A DNA stretch of 40,737 nt, taken from assembly GCA_903789665.1 (NCBI GenBank), contig CAIFEX010000027.1, positions 1 through 40,737 of the forward strand, given 5' to 3'. The position numbers and the translations under genes are program-made. The notes beneath the pieces are model-generated. The model searched no databases. It worked only from the letters and a program-made list of their open reading frames with translations, and was not told the DNA's origin. Of this stretch, positions 11,630 to 31,243 are shown piece after piece. The DNA comes from an uncultured Clostridium sp. (lineage in GTDB: Bacteria > Bacillota > Clostridia > Clostridiales > Clostridiaceae). Positions within the stretch are counted from its first letter, which is position 1. Each line of letters begins with the position of its first letter.

Positions 11630-11658
11630 TTGACCGTCCATTAGTTTATTGCTACAAT
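11630..11658 (+). promoter_or_regulatory. Strong sigma-A promoter for the structured RNA before proA
   Basis: TTGACC (11630-11635) and TACAAT (11653-11658) with an ideal 17-bp spacer, each hexamer one mismatch from consensus. Transcription should start near 11664-11666, about 335 nt before the proA start codon. Confidence 0.75.
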
Positions 11659-11662
11659 TATG

Positions 11663-11681
11663 AATCAAGTGATTCTTAGGT
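11663..11681 (+). repeat. 19-nt copy complementary to 16743-16761
   Basis: AATCAAGTGATTCTTAGGT here is the exact reverse complement of 16743-16761. It lies at the predicted 5' end of the structured RNA. A 19-bp exact match is very unlikely by chance in a 40-kb window. Confidence 0.9.
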
Positions 11682-11995
11682 TCAGGTACTGAACCTTAGA
11701 AGAACTTATCCAGGCGGGCAGCAAAGTGCTTATCTCCCACTTTGAGAAGCTGGGAGTATTAGCAGTGGCAGCGTTAGGATAAATTTAGTCATCATGATGG
11801 GTGAGAATCTAAAAGAGGAAATGCGAGGTGAAAAGGACCTGATTACCAGATGGCAAACGGGAAGATATTATTGGGGGAGTATTTAACCTAAATTAATTGA
11901 ATCCTGTAAAGCCGCCGTTTTGTTAGTCGATGAAATGAAAATATTAGGCACGTGAGATTTTTCTAATATTTAGGAATCAGGTTTGTAAAAATTAG
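11665..11995 (+). ncRNA. Candidate structured RNA or proA leader, about 330 nt
   Basis: The 530 bp between the SASP gene and proA hold no gene, but the part after 11660 is richer in G/C than its surroundings and strongly folded. From 5' to 3': AGGTTCAG/CTGAACCT (11678-11696, 3-nt loop); a long arm closed by TTATCC (about 11705) and GGATAA (about 11777), with a GGCG/CGTT inner helix, an internal loop carrying GGCAGCAAAGT opposite AGTGGCAG, and a GCTTATCTCCCA/TGGGAGTATTAGC apical stem; a purine-rich middle; then AATATTAG/CTAATATT (about 11939-11970). It does not match the T-box, S-box, lysine, glycine or cobalamin consensus as I know them. It may be a long regulatory leader of proA, an independent sRNA, or a remnant of a mobile element. 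Confidence 0.5.
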
Positions 11996-11999
11996 GATC

Positions 12000-13256
12000 A
12001 TGAATGTATATGATTATGTTGTGAAAAAGGCAAGGAAGGCGAATGCAGCAGCAAGAGTAATGTCAGGTAAAGATACTGCAGAAAAGAATAAGGCATTACT
12101 TTCTATGGCAAGGGAGATTAGAAAAAACAAGTATGATATTTTGAAGGCCAATGAGCTGGACCTGGAGAATGCAAAAAAATTGGGGAAAAGCAGTGCCTTC
12201 ATCGATAGGTTGTCTCTAAATGAAAAAAGAATAGATTCTATGGCAGAGGGTCTTGAAAAAGTGGCTTCCCTTCCAGATCCCATAGGTGAAGGCGTAAAAA
12301 TGTGGAAAAGACCTAATGATCTGCGTATTGAAAAAGTGAGAGTACCTCTGGGGACGATAGGAATAATATATGAGGCCAGGCCCAATGTGACGGTTGATGC
12401 TTCGGCGTTATGCCTTAAAAGTGGCAATTCGGTCGTCCTGAGGGGAGGGAAAGAGGCTATTTGTTCTAATTTGGCCATATATAATATCATATATAAGGCA
12501 GCTGTTAATTCTGGCCTTCCGGAGGGAGCTGTGGAATTTATTGATATTACTGAAAGAGAAGCAGTGGAAGTTTTAATGAAACTCAATGGATATATAGATG
12601 TTCTAATACCGCGGGGAGGTAGGGGGCTTATAAGTTCTGTTGTAAAAAATTCTACCGTACCTGTAATTGAGACAGGATCTGGAAACTGTCACATATATGT
12701 GGATGCCGATGCGGATTTAGATATGGCGGAAAAAATAGTTGTAAATGCCAAGACTCAAAGGCCTGCTGTTTGTAATGCAATGGAGACATTGCTTGTTCAT
12801 AAGGATGCAGCTGGAGAATTTCTGCCCCGGTTAGGCAGCACCCTGCACAAATTAAATGTTGAAATAAGGGGGTGCAGCAGGACGCAAAAACTGATCCCGG
12901 ATGTGAAATTGGCCACTGAAAGAGATTACAGCAAGGAATTTCTGGATTTGATCTTGGCTGTAAAGGTAGTTGATTCTATGGATGAAGCCATAGATCACAT
13001 TTATAAATATGGAACAGGGCATTCTGAAGCTATAATAACCAATAACTATGCTTCTTCTCAGAAATTTCTGAGGGAAATTGATGCGGCCGTTGTATATGTA
13101 AATGCCTCTACGAGATTTACAGACGGAGGGGAATTTGGATTCGGTTCGGAGATAGGAATAAGCACCCAAAAGCTTCACGCCAGGGGACCTATGGGCCTAA
13201 ATGAATTGACAACTACCAAATATATGGTATATGGAAATGGCCAGATACGGGAATAG
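12000..13256 (+). CDS. proA: Glutamate-5-semialdehyde dehydrogenase (gamma-glutamyl phosphate reductase)
   Basis: NADPH-dependent second enzyme of proline synthesis, giving glutamate-5-semialdehyde, which cyclises to pyrroline-5-carboxylate. The 418 residues are normal for ProA. Motifs include GTIGIIYEARPNVTVDA (about 118-134), SGNSVVLRGGKEA, the catalytic Cys258 in QRPAVCNAMETLLVH, and the C-terminal FGFGSEIGISTQKLHARGPMG. proB is not adjacent, which is unusual since proB and proA are commonly paired. There is only a weak ribosome binding site (TTAGGATC), so translation may depend on the structured leader upstream. Confidence 0.97.
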   Translation: MNVYDYVVKKARKANAAARVMSGKDTAEKNKALLSMAREIRKNKYDILKANELDLENAKKLGKSSAFIDRLSLNEKRIDSMAEGLEKVASLPDPIGEGVKMWKRPNDLRIEKVRVPLGTIGIIYEARPNVTVDASALCLKSGNSVVLRGGKEAICSNLAIYNIIYKAAVNSGLPEGAVEFIDITEREAVEVLMKLNGYIDVLIPRGGRGLISSVVKNSTVPVIETGSGNCHIYVDADADLDMAEKIVVNAKTQRPAVCNAMETLLVHKDAAGEFLPRLGSTLHKLNVEIRGCSRTQKLIPDVKLATERDYSKEFLDLILAVKVVDSMDEAIDHIYKYGTGHSEAIITNNYASSQKFLREIDAAVVYVNASTRFTDGGEFGFGSEIGISTQKLHARGPMGLNELTTTKYMVYGNGQIRE

Positions 13257-13277
13257 ATATTTTATCTTCATATGATA

Positions 13278-13306
13278 TTGACTTATTTTTTTTATAGCAG
13301 TATATT
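13278..13306 (+). promoter_or_regulatory. Candidate sigma-A promoter of ilvE
   Basis: TTGACT (13278-13283) and TATATT (13301-13306) with a 17-bp spacer. Transcription from here would give an approximately 125-nt leader containing two hairpins before ilvE. Confidence 0.6.
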
Positions 13307-13334
13307 AAAAGTTAAGTATATTAAGTTGTTTTTG

Positions 13335-13400
13335 GTTCAAAAATTTGAACTTTATTTGGGGCATATAAAAGCAAGTAATTATTATGCTTGCTTTTAAAAT
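13335..13400 (+). promoter_or_regulatory. Two hairpins in the ilvE leader
   Basis: GTTCAAA/TTTGAAC at 13335-13350 is a perfect 7-bp palindrome with a 2-nt centre. AAAAGCAAG (13367-13375) pairs perfectly with CTTGCTTTT (13387-13395), followed by TAAAATAATTTTT. The second hairpin could be the proA terminator or, if the promoter at 13278 is used, a leader terminator controlling ilvE. Confidence 0.55.
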
Positions 13401-13436
13401 AATTTTTAAGTTTTAAATTTTGAAGGGGGCTTTTTA

Positions 13437-14354
13437 ATGTCAAAATCGTACGTGTTTTGTGATGGAAAAATTGTGGATGAAAATGAGGTAACGATAAGTA
13501 TAAGATCGAAGGCATTTAACTACGGGCTAGGATGTTTTGAAGGTATAAGGGCTTATTGGAATGAAGACGAAAAACAACTTTATGGATTCAGGTTAAAGGA
13601 CCATTATACTAGATTACTTCAATCCGCAAAGACTTTAAATTTAAATATTCCTTATAGTGTAGATGAATTGAGTAAATTTACAGTTGAACTGCTGAAGAAA
13701 AATCAGTTCAAGCAGACTACTTACATAAGGCCTGTTGTATTTGATGGAGGGACGGATATAAATCCTACTCTTTCCAATGCAGAACCCAAGCTTATCATAT
13801 ATTGTCAACCAATGGGCAAGTTTGCTGGCAAGAATGAATTAAGTGTCTGCATATCATCATGGAGGAGACTGGAAGATACTATGCTTCCTCCCCGAACTAA
13901 GCCGACTGCAGCCTATCTAAATTCTGCACTGGCATCTTTAGAAGCAAAGCAAGCAGGGTATGATGAGGCTATGTTCCTGACTGCAGATGGACATGTTTGT
14001 GAGGGACCAGGTGAAAATATTTTTATCTTTAAAAAAGGACAGCTTATTACACCTCCGCCATCTGACAATATACTGGAAGGTATAACCAGAGATCTTGTTA
14101 TGAGACTTGGCAGGGAGGAACTTGGAATTGAAGTTGTAGAGAGAAGTATTGCGAGAACCGAGCTCTATGCATCGGATGAAATATTTTTCAGCGGAACTGC
14201 TATGGAAGTTACTCCGATAGTAAAAGTGGACAACAGGATTATAGGAACGGGAAAACAGGGAGAACTGTGTAAGAAAATTAAAGAACTCTTTTTTGGACTT
14301 ACTACCGGTAAAAATCCTAAATATTCAGAGTATTGTACACCGGTTTATCGATAG
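13437..14354 (+). CDS. ilvE: Branched-chain amino acid aminotransferase
   Basis: Fold-type IV PLP enzyme that interconverts Val/Leu/Ile with their 2-oxo acids using 2-oxoglutarate/glutamate. 305 residues, normal length. The family start is present (GLGCFEGIRAYW, about 30-41). The PLP Lys is K155 in RTKPTAAYLNSALA, the cofactor Glu lies in GHVCEGPGENIF, and the phosphate-binding GITRDLV and GTAMEVTPI motifs follow. GAAGGGGG precedes the ATG. It is monocistronic by layout, with a strong terminator behind it. The upstream leader hairpins suggest regulation at transcript level. Confidence 0.96.
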   Translation: MSKSYVFCDGKIVDENEVTISIRSKAFNYGLGCFEGIRAYWNEDEKQLYGFRLKDHYTRLLQSAKTLNLNIPYSVDELSKFTVELLKKNQFKQTTYIRPVVFDGGTDINPTLSNAEPKLIIYCQPMGKFAGKNELSVCISSWRRLEDTMLPPRTKPTAAYLNSALASLEAKQAGYDEAMFLTADGHVCEGPGENIFIFKKGQLITPPPSDNILEGITRDLVMRLGREELGIEVVERSIARTELYASDEIFFSGTAMEVTPIVKVDNRIIGTGKQGELCKKIKELFFGLTTGKNPKYSEYCTPVYR

Positions 14355-14381
14355 TTCTGCCGTAAACTGAAAATAGGAAGA

Positions 14382-14430
14382 TTAATGGCAATTTATTGTG
14401 GGGTTCATGATAAATTGCCATTAATTTTAT
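14382..14430 (+). terminator. ilvE terminator
   Basis: A 15-bp perfect stem pairs TTAATGGCAATTTAT (14382-14396) with ATAAATTGCCATTAA (14410-14424), followed by TTTTATTCT. It closes the ilvE unit. Confidence 0.9.
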
Positions 14431-14500
14431 TCTAATATTTTAAGTGCTAAATTGATTTATGTTATAATACGAATTGAATGTTTGTAGGGAAGTGGAAAAA

Positions 14501-15217
14501 ATGGAGACTACTCATAAAATTTCATCACTTGAGTATAAGGTGATTAAGAAAGATAAGAAAGGTATAAGCATAAGTATAGATGAGAAGGGCGAGATAATTG
14601 TAAGGGCTCCTATGAATATGGATTATGGTTCCATAGAGAGGATAATTGAAAATAAAATTGACTGGATATATAAAAGTAAAAATATAATAGAGGATAAAAT
14701 TGAATATTTGAAATCCATGGGTATTTTACAAGGACAGAATATGTTGTGGTTGGGAAAACTTCTTAAAGTGGAAAAACTTCCTTCGAATATAAAAGGGTGT
14801 CATGTGGAGATCCTAGATGATAGGATTGCAGTTTATGGGAATGAAGAATTATTAAGGGATCATGAAGCTGTAAGCAGGAGCATTCGAAAATTTTATAGAG
14901 AAAAATCAAAGATAATTTTTAATAAAAGAGTGGGGCTTTATAGTAAAAAAATAAATTTGTATCCCAACAAGATAAATATAAGGTGTCAAAAAACAAGGTG
15001 GGGAAGCTGTTCTTCAAACAGGAACCTAAGTTTTAATTATAAACTTTTAATGGCACCTATTGATGTGATAGATTATATAGTTGTGCATGAACTCTGTCAT
15101 CTGGCATATATGAATCATTCTAAAGAATACTGGAGTCTTGTTGGATCTATAATTCCCCAATATTTGGAGAGAAGAAATTGGCTTAAAAATAGTGGATACT
15201 TACTTAGGTTTCCATAG
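14501..15217 (+). CDS. YgjP-type (DUF45) zinc metallopeptidase-like protein
   Basis: 238 residues. The C-terminal half carries the YgjP/SprT-like signature: RWGSCSS (about 167-173), SFNYKLLMAP, then the zinc site VVHELCHLAYMNHSKEYW with HELCH and a downstream His in NHS. The N-terminal half (YKVIKKDKKGISISIDEKGE) is the typical beta-rich start of this family. Its physiological substrate is unknown; metal-dependent peptidase activity is inferred from HExxH. The frame opens at 14474, but GGGAAGTGG sits correctly before ATG 14501, so I place the start there. Confidence 0.88.
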   Translation: METTHKISSLEYKVIKKDKKGISISIDEKGEIIVRAPMNMDYGSIERIIENKIDWIYKSKNIIEDKIEYLKSMGILQGQNMLWLGKLLKVEKLPSNIKGCHVEILDDRIAVYGNEELLRDHEAVSRSIRKFYREKSKIIFNKRVGLYSKKINLYPNKINIRCQKTRWGSCSSNRNLSFNYKLLMAPIDVIDYIVVHELCHLAYMNHSKEYWSLVGSIIPQYLERRNWLKNSGYLLRFP

Positions 15218-15297
15218 GATTCCAGGTATATAATGTAGACAATAGAAAAGATATAAAGTAAAATAATAAGTAAAGTAATTTTGAGAGGATAACTAAT

Positions 15298-15849
15298 ATG
15301 GAGTTTTATTCGCTGTTTCTGGTTGCATTGGCACTTTCTCTGGATGCTTTTGGAGTTTCTCTTTGTATAGGATTGAATAAATCAATAGGTAGGAAAAATA
15401 AAATTCAATTTATGAGTTCATTTGGATTTTTTCAATTTTTTTTTGCAATATCCGGTGCATATATAGGGTTCCTATTTAATAAATATGTTGCTTTTGTACC
15501 AAAAGTTGTAGGAGGAGCATTGGTGCTGGCAACCGGGGTATTAATGCTTAGAGATGGTTTGAAGAATAAAAACGAATGCCTGTTTGTCAAACCGGGAATG
15601 GTTACGATAGTTGGAATTTCAGTGAGCATTGATGCTTTTATAATTGGATTTACTGTTTTAAATGACATGGAAAGCAGTGTGAATTTGTTGTACAGTACTT
15701 TATTCATAGGTGCAGTTACATTTTTGATGTCTTTATTTGCCTTCTTGATTTCAAAATATCTTCGTAAAATACATATTGTGAGCAAGTATGCGGATTATAT
15801 AGGTGGTATAATACTTATTGTATTCGGCATTGAAATGATATTTTTTTAA
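15298..15849 (+). CDS. mntP: MntP-family manganese efflux pump
   Basis: 183-residue membrane protein with six predicted transmembrane helices in two similar halves. Each half has a conserved Asp motif: LSLDAFGVSLCIG near residue 15 and VSIDAFIIGFTVL near 105, characteristic of MntP/YebN. The family exports excess Mn(II). GAGAGGATAAC precedes the ATG. A Fur-family regulator starts 20 nt after the stop, suggesting a two-gene metal-homeostasis operon. A related sporulation membrane protein (YtaF) shares the fold, but the length and motifs favour MntP. Confidence 0.88.
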   Translation: MEFYSLFLVALALSLDAFGVSLCIGLNKSIGRKNKIQFMSSFGFFQFFFAISGAYIGFLFNKYVAFVPKVVGGALVLATGVLMLRDGLKNKNECLFVKPGMVTIVGISVSIDAFIIGFTVLNDMESSVNLLYSTLFIGAVTFLMSLFAFLISKYLRKIHIVSKYADYIGGIILIVFGIEMIFF

Positions 15850-15869
15850 GAAAAATTTGGGGTGAATTC

Positions 15870-16304
15870 ATGGATATAGAAAAATGCTTAAGAAAATATA
15901 ATATAAAAGTGACAAGGGCAAGATTGAATATCTTGGATATATTATCCAAAAGTGAAGATGCAATAAATGCGGAGGGTATATTTGAAATATGCAGACAAAA
16001 AAATGTAAATGTGGATTTATCTACGGTCTACAGGTCCCTAGAGCTATTTCAAATCAAAAAAATTGTGAGAAAGATTGACCTGGGACAGGGAGAGTATAGA
16101 TATTCAATAATAAGAAAAAAACACAAGCACATACTGCAGTGTAAAATATGCCATAAACAGATAGAAATAGATTGTCCTATGCAGCAGGTGGAAGAGATAA
16201 TAAAAAGTAAAACAGGTTTTGTATTTGAAGAAGAAAATCTTGATTTTAAAATAAATGGTATATGTAAAGATTGCAGGAAAAAATTAAAGAAAAAGATGGA
16301 TTAA
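15870..16304 (+). CDS. Fur-family metal-responsive transcriptional regulator
   Basis: 144 residues. The N-terminal winged helix (VTRARLNILDILSKSED, then DLSTVYRSLELF recognition region) precedes a metal/dimerisation domain with HKHILQC. It has two structural-zinc CxxC pairs, C91-K-I-C94 and C132-K-D-C135. Members sense Fe, Zn, Mn or peroxide (Fur, Zur, Mur, PerR); the sequence alone does not tell which. Coupling to mntP makes manganese, or peroxide via PerR, plausible. Its stop overlaps the convergent 16301 gene by 4 bp. Confidence 0.92.
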   Translation: MDIEKCLRKYNIKVTRARLNILDILSKSEDAINAEGIFEICRQKNVNVDLSTVYRSLELFQIKKIVRKIDLGQGEYRYSIIRKKHKHILQCKICHKQIEIDCPMQQVEEIIKSKTGFVFEEENLDFKINGICKDCRKKLKKKMD

Positions 16305-16636
16305 AAGCTTTTTTGCTGAAGGGTTACTTGAGCGGGGTACACTTTTTTTATTTTCCACGTGCCGCTGTTGTTTTTCTCCAGAAACACGGTGTATCCTATT
16401 TTTCTGTGGGGGGATTCGCTTGATATTCCCTCAACTTTAATGAATGCAGCTGTACCGTTGGAAAATGATATAGTTGGATTTTCCATTCCGTATATCTTAT
16501 ATTTATTGAAGATTCCCGTAGTAAAATAATGTGTAACTGCGTAATTGATATCTCTGCATCTAATTGACATGTATACATTTTCTGTTATTGTAAGGATTAT
16601 AAAGATTATTATAATTACAGATAGAAATTTTTTCAT
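16301..16636 (-). CDS. Small membrane-anchored or secreted protein of unknown function
   Basis: 111 residues. The N-terminus MKKFLSVIIIIFIILTITENV is a signal/anchor sequence, followed by an extracytoplasmic domain of about 85 residues. This has a strand-rich pattern (ISFSNGTAAFIKVEGISSES, then GYTVFLEKNNSGTWKIKKVYP) resembling NTF2-like or DUF4829-like lipoprotein folds, though no lipobox Cys is present. I do not recognise the family. The frame extends to 16669, but TGGAGG stands at the right distance before the ATG at 16636. The start is divergent from the HD-GYP gene. Confidence 0.72.
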   Translation of the reverse strand: MKKFLSVIIIIFIILTITENVYMSIRCRDINYAVTHYFTTGIFNKYKIYGMENPTISFSNGTAAFIKVEGISSESPHRKIGYTVFLEKNNSGTWKIKKVYPAQVTLQQKSF

Positions 16637-16720
16637 ATTTGCCTCCATATAATGGAAAATTACTTTCAATATTATAATATCCGAAATTTATTCATAAGTA
16701 AATACCAGTTTTATATTTAT

Positions 16721-16726
16721 TATGAT
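16721..16726 (+). promoter_or_regulatory. Candidate -10 element of the HD-GYP gene
   Basis: TATGAT followed by AAAATTTC lies about 17 bp upstream of the 19-nt element. If used, transcription would start near 16733-16741, placing the complementary 19-mer at the mRNA 5' end. No good -35 hexamer is seen, so this is tentative. Confidence 0.35.
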
Positions 16727-16742
16727 AAAATTTCTTTAATGG

Positions 16743-16761
16743 ACCTAAGAATCACTTGATT
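16743..16761 (+). repeat. 19-nt element complementary to the 11663 RNA, abutting the Shine-Dalgarno
   Basis: ACCTAAGAATCACTTGATT ends directly before GGGGTGAAATA-ATG, the ribosome binding site and start of the HD-GYP gene. It is the exact reverse complement of 11663-11681. Both copies are oriented so that two plus-strand transcripts could base-pair. Confidence 0.9.
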
Positions 16762-16772
16762 GGGGTGAAATA

Positions 16773-17837
16773 ATGATGAGATTAGAATTTATAAATAAAG
16801 TCAGAGAAAAAGATATACTAGGGAAAAGCATATTGACCAATGATGGACAAGTTTTGTTGAGGGCAGGAGTCGAGTTGAATGGCAATTATATAAAAAAGTT
16901 AAAAGAACTGGGTGTATTATACATATATGTAGAAGACGAGAGATTGGAAGATGTGGAGGTTGAAGATGAAAAATTGGCTCAATTGAAACAATTTACTATA
17001 AAGAGTATGTCAAATATACTTGCGAATATACATGACTTTAATGGGAAAAAATTAAAAGATTCCCTGTCAGATGTAGAAGATATGATAAATTACATAATTG
17101 AGCTTGGAGATGTCAATAAAAGCCTTTATGATATACAAACCTATGACAATTATACTTTTATTCATTCTATAGATGTATGTATTATGGCTTCTTTTTTAGG
17201 TATTTCTGCAGGATATAATAAATGGGATTTGAAAGAAATCGGAGTGGGAGCGGCACTGCATGATGTAGGAAAGACCAAGGTTCCGGTTTCTATATTGAAC
17301 AAAAAAGATAAATTGACAGGGGATGAATTTCGTGAGATTAAAAAACATCCTATCTATGGCTCAGAACTTCTTAAAAAAAATTTTGCCATCTCGGATAATG
17401 TAATAAAAGTAGTGGAACAACATCATGAAAGAGTGGATGGAAAAGGATATCCCTATGGACTTAACAGCAATCAGATAACAAAATTTGCAAAATTGGTCTG
17501 TATATGTGATGTATATGATGCTGTAAGCAATGATAGATGTTATAGAAAAAAATTCAGGCCAAATGATGCATATGAGCTCATACTTTCAGGGAGTGGAAGC
17601 AGTTTTGATCGGAAGTTGGTATGCTATTTTAAAAATACTTTTGCCATATATCCTCTGGGATGCTGCATTAAACTGTCGAATAAAATTGAAGGTTATGTTG
17701 TAAGGCAAAATAGGGGGTTTCCGGACAGACCGGTGATAAGGGTGCTGTATGATATAAAAACCAGGGAACCTATACCTTTTTTTGAAATAAATTTGCTTAA
17801 AAGGACGGATTTGGTTATAGAGTCAATAGTTGAATGA
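16773..17837 (+). CDS. HD-GYP domain cyclic-di-GMP phosphodiesterase
   Basis: 354 residues. An N-terminal DUF3391-like region (about 1-60) precedes the HD-GYP domain. Conserved residues include H131 in TFIHSIDV, H163-D164 in ALHDVGKTKVP, HPIYG, H217-H218 in EQHHERVDGKGYPYGL (the GYP motif with K in DGKGYP) and D246 in CDVYDA. These are the metal ligands and signature of active c-di-GMP phosphodiesterases. About 80 residues follow (KNTFAIYPLGCCIKLSNKIEG), a PilZ-like or small beta domain often seen in clostridial members. The leader carries a 19-nt sequence complementary to the RNA at 11665. Start at ATG 16773 or 16776; GGGGTGA is the Shine-Dalgarno. Confidence 0.93.
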   Translation: MMRLEFINKVREKDILGKSILTNDGQVLLRAGVELNGNYIKKLKELGVLYIYVEDERLEDVEVEDEKLAQLKQFTIKSMSNILANIHDFNGKKLKDSLSDVEDMINYIIELGDVNKSLYDIQTYDNYTFIHSIDVCIMASFLGISAGYNKWDLKEIGVGAALHDVGKTKVPVSILNKKDKLTGDEFREIKKHPIYGSELLKKNFAISDNVIKVVEQHHERVDGKGYPYGLNSNQITKFAKLVCICDVYDAVSNDRCYRKKFRPNDAYELILSGSGSSFDRKLVCYFKNTFAIYPLGCCIKLSNKIEGYVVRQNRGFPDRPVIRVLYDIKTREPIPFFEINLLKRTDLVIESIVE

Positions 17838-30966: not shown

Positions 30967-30990
30967 AGAACCACTAAAATTGAATATCTA

Positions 30991-31144
30991 AATTAGGTGT
31001 TATTTAAGAATAAGTAAAAGGAAAAGTCAAATACTGCAGTCCACGCTACTGTATGGAGGATGAAACTTTATTATGTCACTGGATATATAAATCTGGGAAG
31101 ACCAAGGAGTAAGATGAATCTGAGCCAGGAAGCCTGCCTAATAT
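30991..31144 (+). promoter_or_regulatory. Cobalamin riboswitch
   Basis: Adenosylcobalamin/cobalamin aptamer. It starts with TTAGGTGT (30993-31000) and AAAAGGAAAAGTC, and continues with the CGCTACTGTATGGAGGATGAA core and CACTGG...CTGGGAAG. The B12 box region, GAGCCAGGAAGCCTGCC, is at about 31122-31138. TTAGG (30993-30997) pairs with CCTAA (31137-31141) to close P1. A hairpin ATTCCTT-CGGGG-AAAGGAAG follows at about 31155-31172 without a strong T run, so the output may be translational. It precedes the DUF3870 gene. Confidence 0.92.
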
Positions 31145-31243
31145 ATATATGTTGATTCCTTCGGGGAAAGGAAGAGACGTTATGCTTTAAATTCATTAAA
31201 TTGAGTTTTATAGCAGTATATATTTGGGGGGAGGGTATGTTTT

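Follow-up and report, generated by a model that had tools for sequence, protein, structure and literature searches.

Complementary 19-mers in two gene leaders of a Clostridium contig: probable ends of oppositely oriented insertions of one small dispersed repeat

Two gene leaders in a stretch of 40,737 nucleotides from an uncultured Clostridium sp. (GenBank assembly GCA_903789665.1, contig CAIFEX010000027.1, positions 1 to 40,737; the window hereafter) carry the same 19-mer, AATCAAGTGATTCTTAGGT, at 11663–11681 on the plus strand and, with 0 mismatches, at 16743–16761 on the minus strand. The first copy lies just behind a promoter, upstream of a gene which, from its sequence and context, we take to be proA, and the second ends at the base before the Shine-Dalgarno-like sequence of an HD-GYP gene. 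Does the RNA of one leader act on the other gene? The first-pass annotation, whose reading of the exact complementarity, promoter, Shine-Dalgarno position and HD-GYP assignment was confirmed in this study, proposed a trans-acting antisense link between a structured RNA and c-di-GMP turnover, and offered as the alternative a common origin of the two sites as ends of the same mobile element. Our results point to the latter. The two 19-mers are very probably the homologous ends of two independent, oppositely oriented insertions of one small, non-autonomous dispersed repeat of ~150 bp with two structured domains, and this explains the complementarity. Thus, the match is no good reason to suppose that either gene is controlled by the RNA of the other.

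Two insertion sites and their empty alleles

Within the window, no other site matched the 19-mer at up to 3 mismatches, and 0.02 matches were expected from dinucleotide shuffles; the match within the window is not a chance one. Genome-wide, the match is unremarkable, because the same genome contained 29 sites at no more than 3 mismatches, of which 3 are exact and 8 differ at one position, while a reversed control pattern gave 0. Nine of the places outside the window matched with 0 or 1 mismatch. The search for further copies that the first-pass annotation had called for thus revealed a multi-copy sequence.

Both genes were found in all 13 genomes of the genus, which allowed the two leaders to be compared with their counterparts. 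When 400–460 bases upstream of either gene were searched in the 12 congeners, the best matches to the 19-mer had 6–9 mismatches. The 19-mer was absent from the HD-GYP leader in 12/12 congeners and from the region upstream of proA in 12/12. A comparable proA leader exists in G010 and G008 alone; for the other ten, in which coding sequence lies close upstream, the absence at proA tells little. The proA allele of G010 reads TACAATTATGG|ATAAATTAATTCAT and that of the window reads TACAATTATGA|element|ATAAATTTAGTCAT, with identical promoter hexamers and spacing, and G010 thus has an empty site directly past the same promoter. The proA leader of G008 has neither the element nor ATAAA. At the HD-GYP gene, the junction reads TTTAT|TG(A/G)GGTG in 7 of the 12 congeners (G003, G005, G006, G009, G010, G011, and G012) and CACTTGAT|TGGGGTG in the window. 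The features of both loci are as follows.

11630–11658, plus strand: proA promoter TTGACC-17-TACAAT, from a consensus scan; identical hexamers and spacing upstream of proA in the element-free G010
11663–11681, plus strand: the 19-mer, that is, a single flanking base and the 5' end of the element (its right end in the IS200/IS605 convention)
11664–11778, plus strand: a 115-bp copy of the dispersed repeat in its short-hairpin version; identified by a match to covariance model R1, by blastn copies in the same genome and in relatives, and by the empty site of G010
11779–11783, minus strand: target pentamer TTTAT (ATAAA on the plus strand), the neighbor of the insertion; kept in the G010 allele and at 5 polymorphic sites in G004/G011
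12000–13256, plus strand: proA-like gene downstream of the first copy, 418 amino acid residues, Pfam Aldedh
16741–16760, minus strand: putative remnant of the second copy, its last ~20 bp (TTGAT at the end, read on the plus strand), called from the sequence; TTTAT instead in 7/12 congeners
16762–16768, plus strand: Shine-Dalgarno-like GGGGTGA of the HD-GYP gene, called from the sequence, at the same position in orthologs and adjoining the remnant; it follows directly after 16761 and precedes the ATG at 16773
16773–17837, plus strand: HD-GYP domain gene, 354 amino acid residues, Pfam HD_5 and HD, motif HHERVDGKGYP

Judged by these alleles, each of the two window sites appears to be a private insertion. 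At proA, the orthologous alleles strongly suggest that the promoter predates the insertion and that the repeat landed just downstream of it, and this is why the repeat seems to start at +1; promoter-like sites of the TTGACC-17-TACAAT kind are, by themselves, frequent in shuffles of that region (mean 2.3). At the HD-GYP gene, the alleles likewise strongly suggest that the repeat landed between TTTAT and the Shine-Dalgarno sequence and that all but ~20 bp was lost afterwards. The genome has neither the remainder of this copy nor part of the older leader, and we infer that both were lost later. With empty alleles for both loci, a tempting regulatory story gives way to an insertion history.

Copies, structure and distribution of the repeat

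The covariance model R1 was built from 26 rows, of which the genome of the window supplied 8, the proA-leader copy among them, so that the match of R1 to 11663–11783 (116.8 bits) is one by construction. The same holds for the other training rows, which are few compared with the match counts except in that genome. The 26 copies could be aligned over ~150 positions with a mean column identity of 85%. When the proA leader was used as a blastn query, 18 of 59 genomes, own included, gave matches, and most of the matches listed span ~100–197 of the query, which is the repeat; those in G032 and G035, and the match listed for G017, are confined to the downstream part of the leader.

The window copy comprises two domains.

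11667–11707, plus strand: hairpin 1, whose 5' arm contains most of the 19-mer; from a fold and from pairing counts in 43 copies
11706–11782, plus strand: domain 2, closed by TTATCC (11706–11711) with GGATAA (11777–11782); its boundary is taken from the empty sites, and its last bases are target-derived

Among the 43 copies, TTATCC and GGATAA form Watson-Crick pairs in 39–43 copies per position, and AAGT and ACTT in 40–43; these positions are mostly invariant, and the counts show the possibility of pairing and not covariation. Five of the 23 predicted pairs were changed on both sides, and a diverged copy (L023) has, as judged by eye, a compensatory change in which TTATCT with AGATAA replaces TTATCC with GGATAA. 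Some copies have internal deletions and others have extra inserted hairpins. Versions of ~180–200 nt at four loci (L044, L048, L061, and L037) carry an extra hairpin between or inside both domains.

R1 matches were found in 11 of the 13 genomes of the genus. Their numbers were 25 in the genome of the window, 133 in G003, 160 in G004, 140 in G005, 116 in G006, 72 in G008, 172 in G009, 67 in G010, and 139 in G011, with one each in G001 and G012 and none in G002 and G007; up to 150 first-look candidates were scored per genome, and the large counts may be lower bounds. Under stricter filters, with 26 candidates scored in each genome, 50 of 116 sampled genomes of the family had R1 matches. The exact 24-base core occurred, among the matches listed, in C. 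carboxidivorans, C. drakei, C. ragsdalei, C. ljungdahlii, C. muellerianum, C. algidicarnis, and C. tetanomorphum. The repeat had no match in plasmids or phages, and its exact core had none in viral contigs. No Rfam family matched the repeat at its gathering score in the window, whose sole matches were a T-box and a cobalamin riboswitch at other places, or in 11 loci, 7 of which have element copies. A mir-203 match in the proA leader was rejected as a chance Rfam match. Finally, the literature searched contained no description of the repeat, and four short pieces of it were also absent from the texts searched. Its ends, target and structure are now given for a high-copy clostridial repeat that is also present in the gas fermenters C. 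ljungdahlii, C. ragsdalei, C. carboxidivorans, and C. drakei, which should help the annotation of gene leaders.

The proA leader appears to hold a second mobile remnant. Window positions 11865–11984 resemble sequences in G064, G017, G032 (6 places), and G035, that is, in 5 of 116 genomes with the window's own included. The copies end in ..AATCAG near gene starts, and in G017 the sequence lies after a TnpB-like gene (NF040570 at E 1.4e-18, below the cut-off; TIGR01766 above the cut-off). The segment 11865–11980, which separates the repeat from the start codon of proA, is likely what is left, in decayed form, of the 3' end of a group A IStron or a TnpB element, of which the intron part was not seen. 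Relatives of 11865–11980 in G017, G035, G032, and G064 precede various genes, among them RNase J-like and ribosomal protein L25-like ones (named by eye). The structured RNA of the first-pass annotation is thus probably two unrelated mobile remnants in tandem.

Insertion anatomy and candidate movers

G004 and G011, whose chromosomes are ~96% identical over their aligned parts, were compared over 800 kb of each. The compared segments contained 73 elements or parts of elements, and flanks could be mapped for 42, of which 18 had a counterpart of similar length, 15 differed otherwise in length, and 9 faced a gap of 28–40 bases. The latter 9 were chosen as candidates by this gap size, which is expected for an empty site, and 5 of them are clean empty sites in which ATAAA is retained once. 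The insertions lie 3' of TTTAT, without a longer target duplication, and read TTTAT|CCG...CACTTGAT|flank on the minus strand, with TTGAT at the other end. All 28 copies picked as full-length, which include four sites in both genomes, begin with AT, the ATAAA positions hold in 26–28, and the T in ATAAA at the other end is present in 26; past AT and ATAAA, the flanks of these copies have no consensus. The AT at the other end could belong to the element, to the target, or to a 2-bp duplication. Thus, the repeat is multi-copy, its sites vary between close genomes, and its clean sites lie 3' of TTTAT with TTGAT at the other end. These polymorphic insertions, together with the empty window sites, back the alternative of the first-pass annotation, whose overall interpretation was in this way partly supported.

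Several known systems resemble this pattern. In IS200/IS605 elements, the cleavage sites interact with guides that lie 5' of the hairpins, and PATEs are IS200/IS605 derivatives that consist of the ends only, according to PMC6006769 and PMC7290912, respectively. Similar to the IS200/IS605 plan, the repeat carries hairpins near its asymmetric ends, is flanked by a fixed T-rich pentamer 5' of the insertion without a longer duplication, and is closed by a similar pentamer at the other end. Similar to PATEs, it has no coding capacity and has hairpins near both ends, a T-rich pentamer at one end, and possible pairing of both ends with an internal, guide-like heptamer; different from PATEs, it has no full-length IS200/IS605 element with its ends among the loci scanned. 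The bcr set of the Bacillus cereus group comprises elements of 100–400 bp in 11–130 copies whose mobility is tied to a TTTAT motif, as stated in PMC6542083, and PMC2267715 describes bcr1/group A repeats as a stem-loop repeat family. The repeat likewise falls in the 100–400 bp class, is of high copy number, and inserts in a TTTAT-linked manner, but it comes from Clostridiaceae, and it is likened to bcr1 by these features; for this comparison, the plasmid collection was searched as well, without any match. Group A IStrons and ISDra2 (IS8301) insert downstream of TTGAT, ATTAT, or TTTAT, and group A IStrons end in TCAG (PMC4227781). The target of the repeat is similar, whereas the repeat has no intron, no TnpB, and no TCAG 3' terminus. 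Presumably, the right side of ISDra2 also ends in TTGAT. REP/RAYT systems likewise have small palindromic intergenic repeats, and one copy in the genome of the window abuts a RAYT-like gene; the repeat is larger, however, has two domains, and is abundant in G009 and G011, which have no match to this RAYT. In kind, the repeat family, found undescribed in the literature searched, belongs with bcr1-like and PATE-like elements, as a candidate member of either.

By analogy with IS200/IS605 ends, we lean with modest confidence toward a Y1 HUH transposase that would move the repeat in trans as single-stranded DNA, with the internal heptamer GGATAAGT as a predicted guide that would pair with TTTATCC at one end and with ACTTGAT, with one bulged base, at the other. 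A number of observations weigh against this reading or against the insertion pattern from which it starts. Of the 9 candidate sites, four fall short of a clean empty site: one comes close to an exact fit, two fit inexactly, and the last is a copy with part of it deleted. Moreover, the candidates were picked by gap size from 42 mapped of 73 elements, and the reading covered these 9, beside 15 mapped elements with other differences in length. No autonomous partner with the ends of the repeat was found among 37 Y1 loci (some places fetched twice), which were drawn from 54 Y1 matches, 24 of them not fetched by that search and one of these fetched later. These loci hold one full copy (beside the RAYT-like gene of the genome itself), a decayed half-copy in L208 near a Y1 gene of G008, and weak hits in L212 and L219; on a closer look, the similarity beside the IS605-like copies of G010 and G008 is short and limited to the apical hairpin. 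G003 and G004, with 133 and 160 copies, have no PF01797 match. HUH transposition is expected to leave elements in lagging-strand orientation. This orientation was found, with a mixed outcome, for 39/50 full copies vs 29/54 partial copies in the G004/G011 segments (shared sites counted twice) and for 47/93 at other loci, some from the same regions. Intergenic target sites are nearly equal on both strands of the G004/G011 segments, a hand tally of the listed matches gave little replication-strand bias, and wobble counts favor no strand (GT 50, AC 67). Finally, identical junctions would be expected from a recombinase whose core is a 2-bp AT.

The last point leads to a tentative alternative, possible but in our judgment short of probable, in which the mover is not a Y1 HUH enzyme but a serine or tyrosine recombinase that has an AT core, or in which the repeat spreads by target-primed reverse transcription with TTTAT-3'OH as the primer. 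The junctions N-AT|CAAG...CGG|ATAAA are equally compatible with AT crossover or TTTAT priming, the genomes G003 and G004 without Y1 matches are in its favor, and the background given in PMC6542083 suggests that the mobility of bcr elements with TTTAT is possibly recombination-like. However, the ends are asymmetric hairpins in which no terminal inverted repeats are obvious by eye, and both may pair with one internal heptamer, features that fit IS200/IS605 better. Copies that are deleted internally but retain both ends (L040, L043, and L066) are contrary to a reverse transcription that truncates 5' ends. A bolder version seems unlikely to us, namely that this is a large undescribed structured mobile repeat family of Clostridiaceae, with one guide heptamer for both ends and 133–160 copies without a detectable Y1, whose mover is an unrecognized enzyme possibly common to bcr1 via TTTAT. 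The identity of the mover of such TTTAT-targeting repeats now becomes a testable question.

Searches from the side of other transposition genes gave no partner either: among 30 TnpB loci, no element had the ends of the repeat, and among 30 loci of RAYT relatives, strong element matches were present in only 3, the one of the genome itself, L274, and L288, the latter two from repeat-rich genomes. The single Y1 transposase gene of the genome of the window (L219:2577-3164, G000:C25) is RAYT-like, below the NCBIfam cut-off, and its 3' end runs straight into a repeat copy. Many related RAYT genes of other Clostridiaceae (L266–L287) lie near a different, CACCCCTGGGGTG-like palindrome, as judged by eye. 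A repeat copy is also found as an insertion within a decayed IS607-type tnpB (G004:C1:2965476-2965728).

Regulatory readings and other leaders

Two regulatory readings compete with an insertion history. In favor of translational control by the proA leader RNA, whose 5' end would pair in trans with the HD-GYP leader beside its ribosome binding site, there are the perfect 19-nt complementarity, a promoter at the right distance, and a favorable computed cofold of the leaders (-65.5 vs -50.0 kcal/mol apart). The pairing is not maintained among relatives, however: no trace of the 19-mer is present at the HD-GYP leader in any congener, or at proA, where both comparable leaders are without it. Hairpin 1 (-15.3 kcal/mol) also ties up most of the 19-mer in the proA leader, and the genome contains 27 further sites of the repeat end at up to 3 mismatches; therefore, antisense pairing would be unspecific. 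The proposed link to c-di-GMP turnover was thus unsupported, and we give it almost no credence; in the computed fold, incidental pairing of both leaders is possible energetically, although it is neither conserved nor specific. Hardly more credible is a riboswitch-like role, in which the repeat would be selected as a cis-regulatory leader upstream of particular genes. Several copies of the genome do lie in gene leaders, such as those of LexA-like (L042) and DapA-like (L039) genes (named by eye), and the 5 of 23 predicted pairs altered on both sides also count in its favor. Against this, the sites vary between close genomes, no Rfam family reaches its gathering score, and only 7 of the 28 full copies from two genomes, among which four sites enter twice, are followed by a gene of the same direction when ORFs are called simply. 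Retention as a regulatory leader is not what this pattern suggests, though single copies may affect their neighbors.

Outside the two leaders, the window contains a T-box leader (131–342) and a cobalamin riboswitch (30978–31155), each above its Rfam gathering score.

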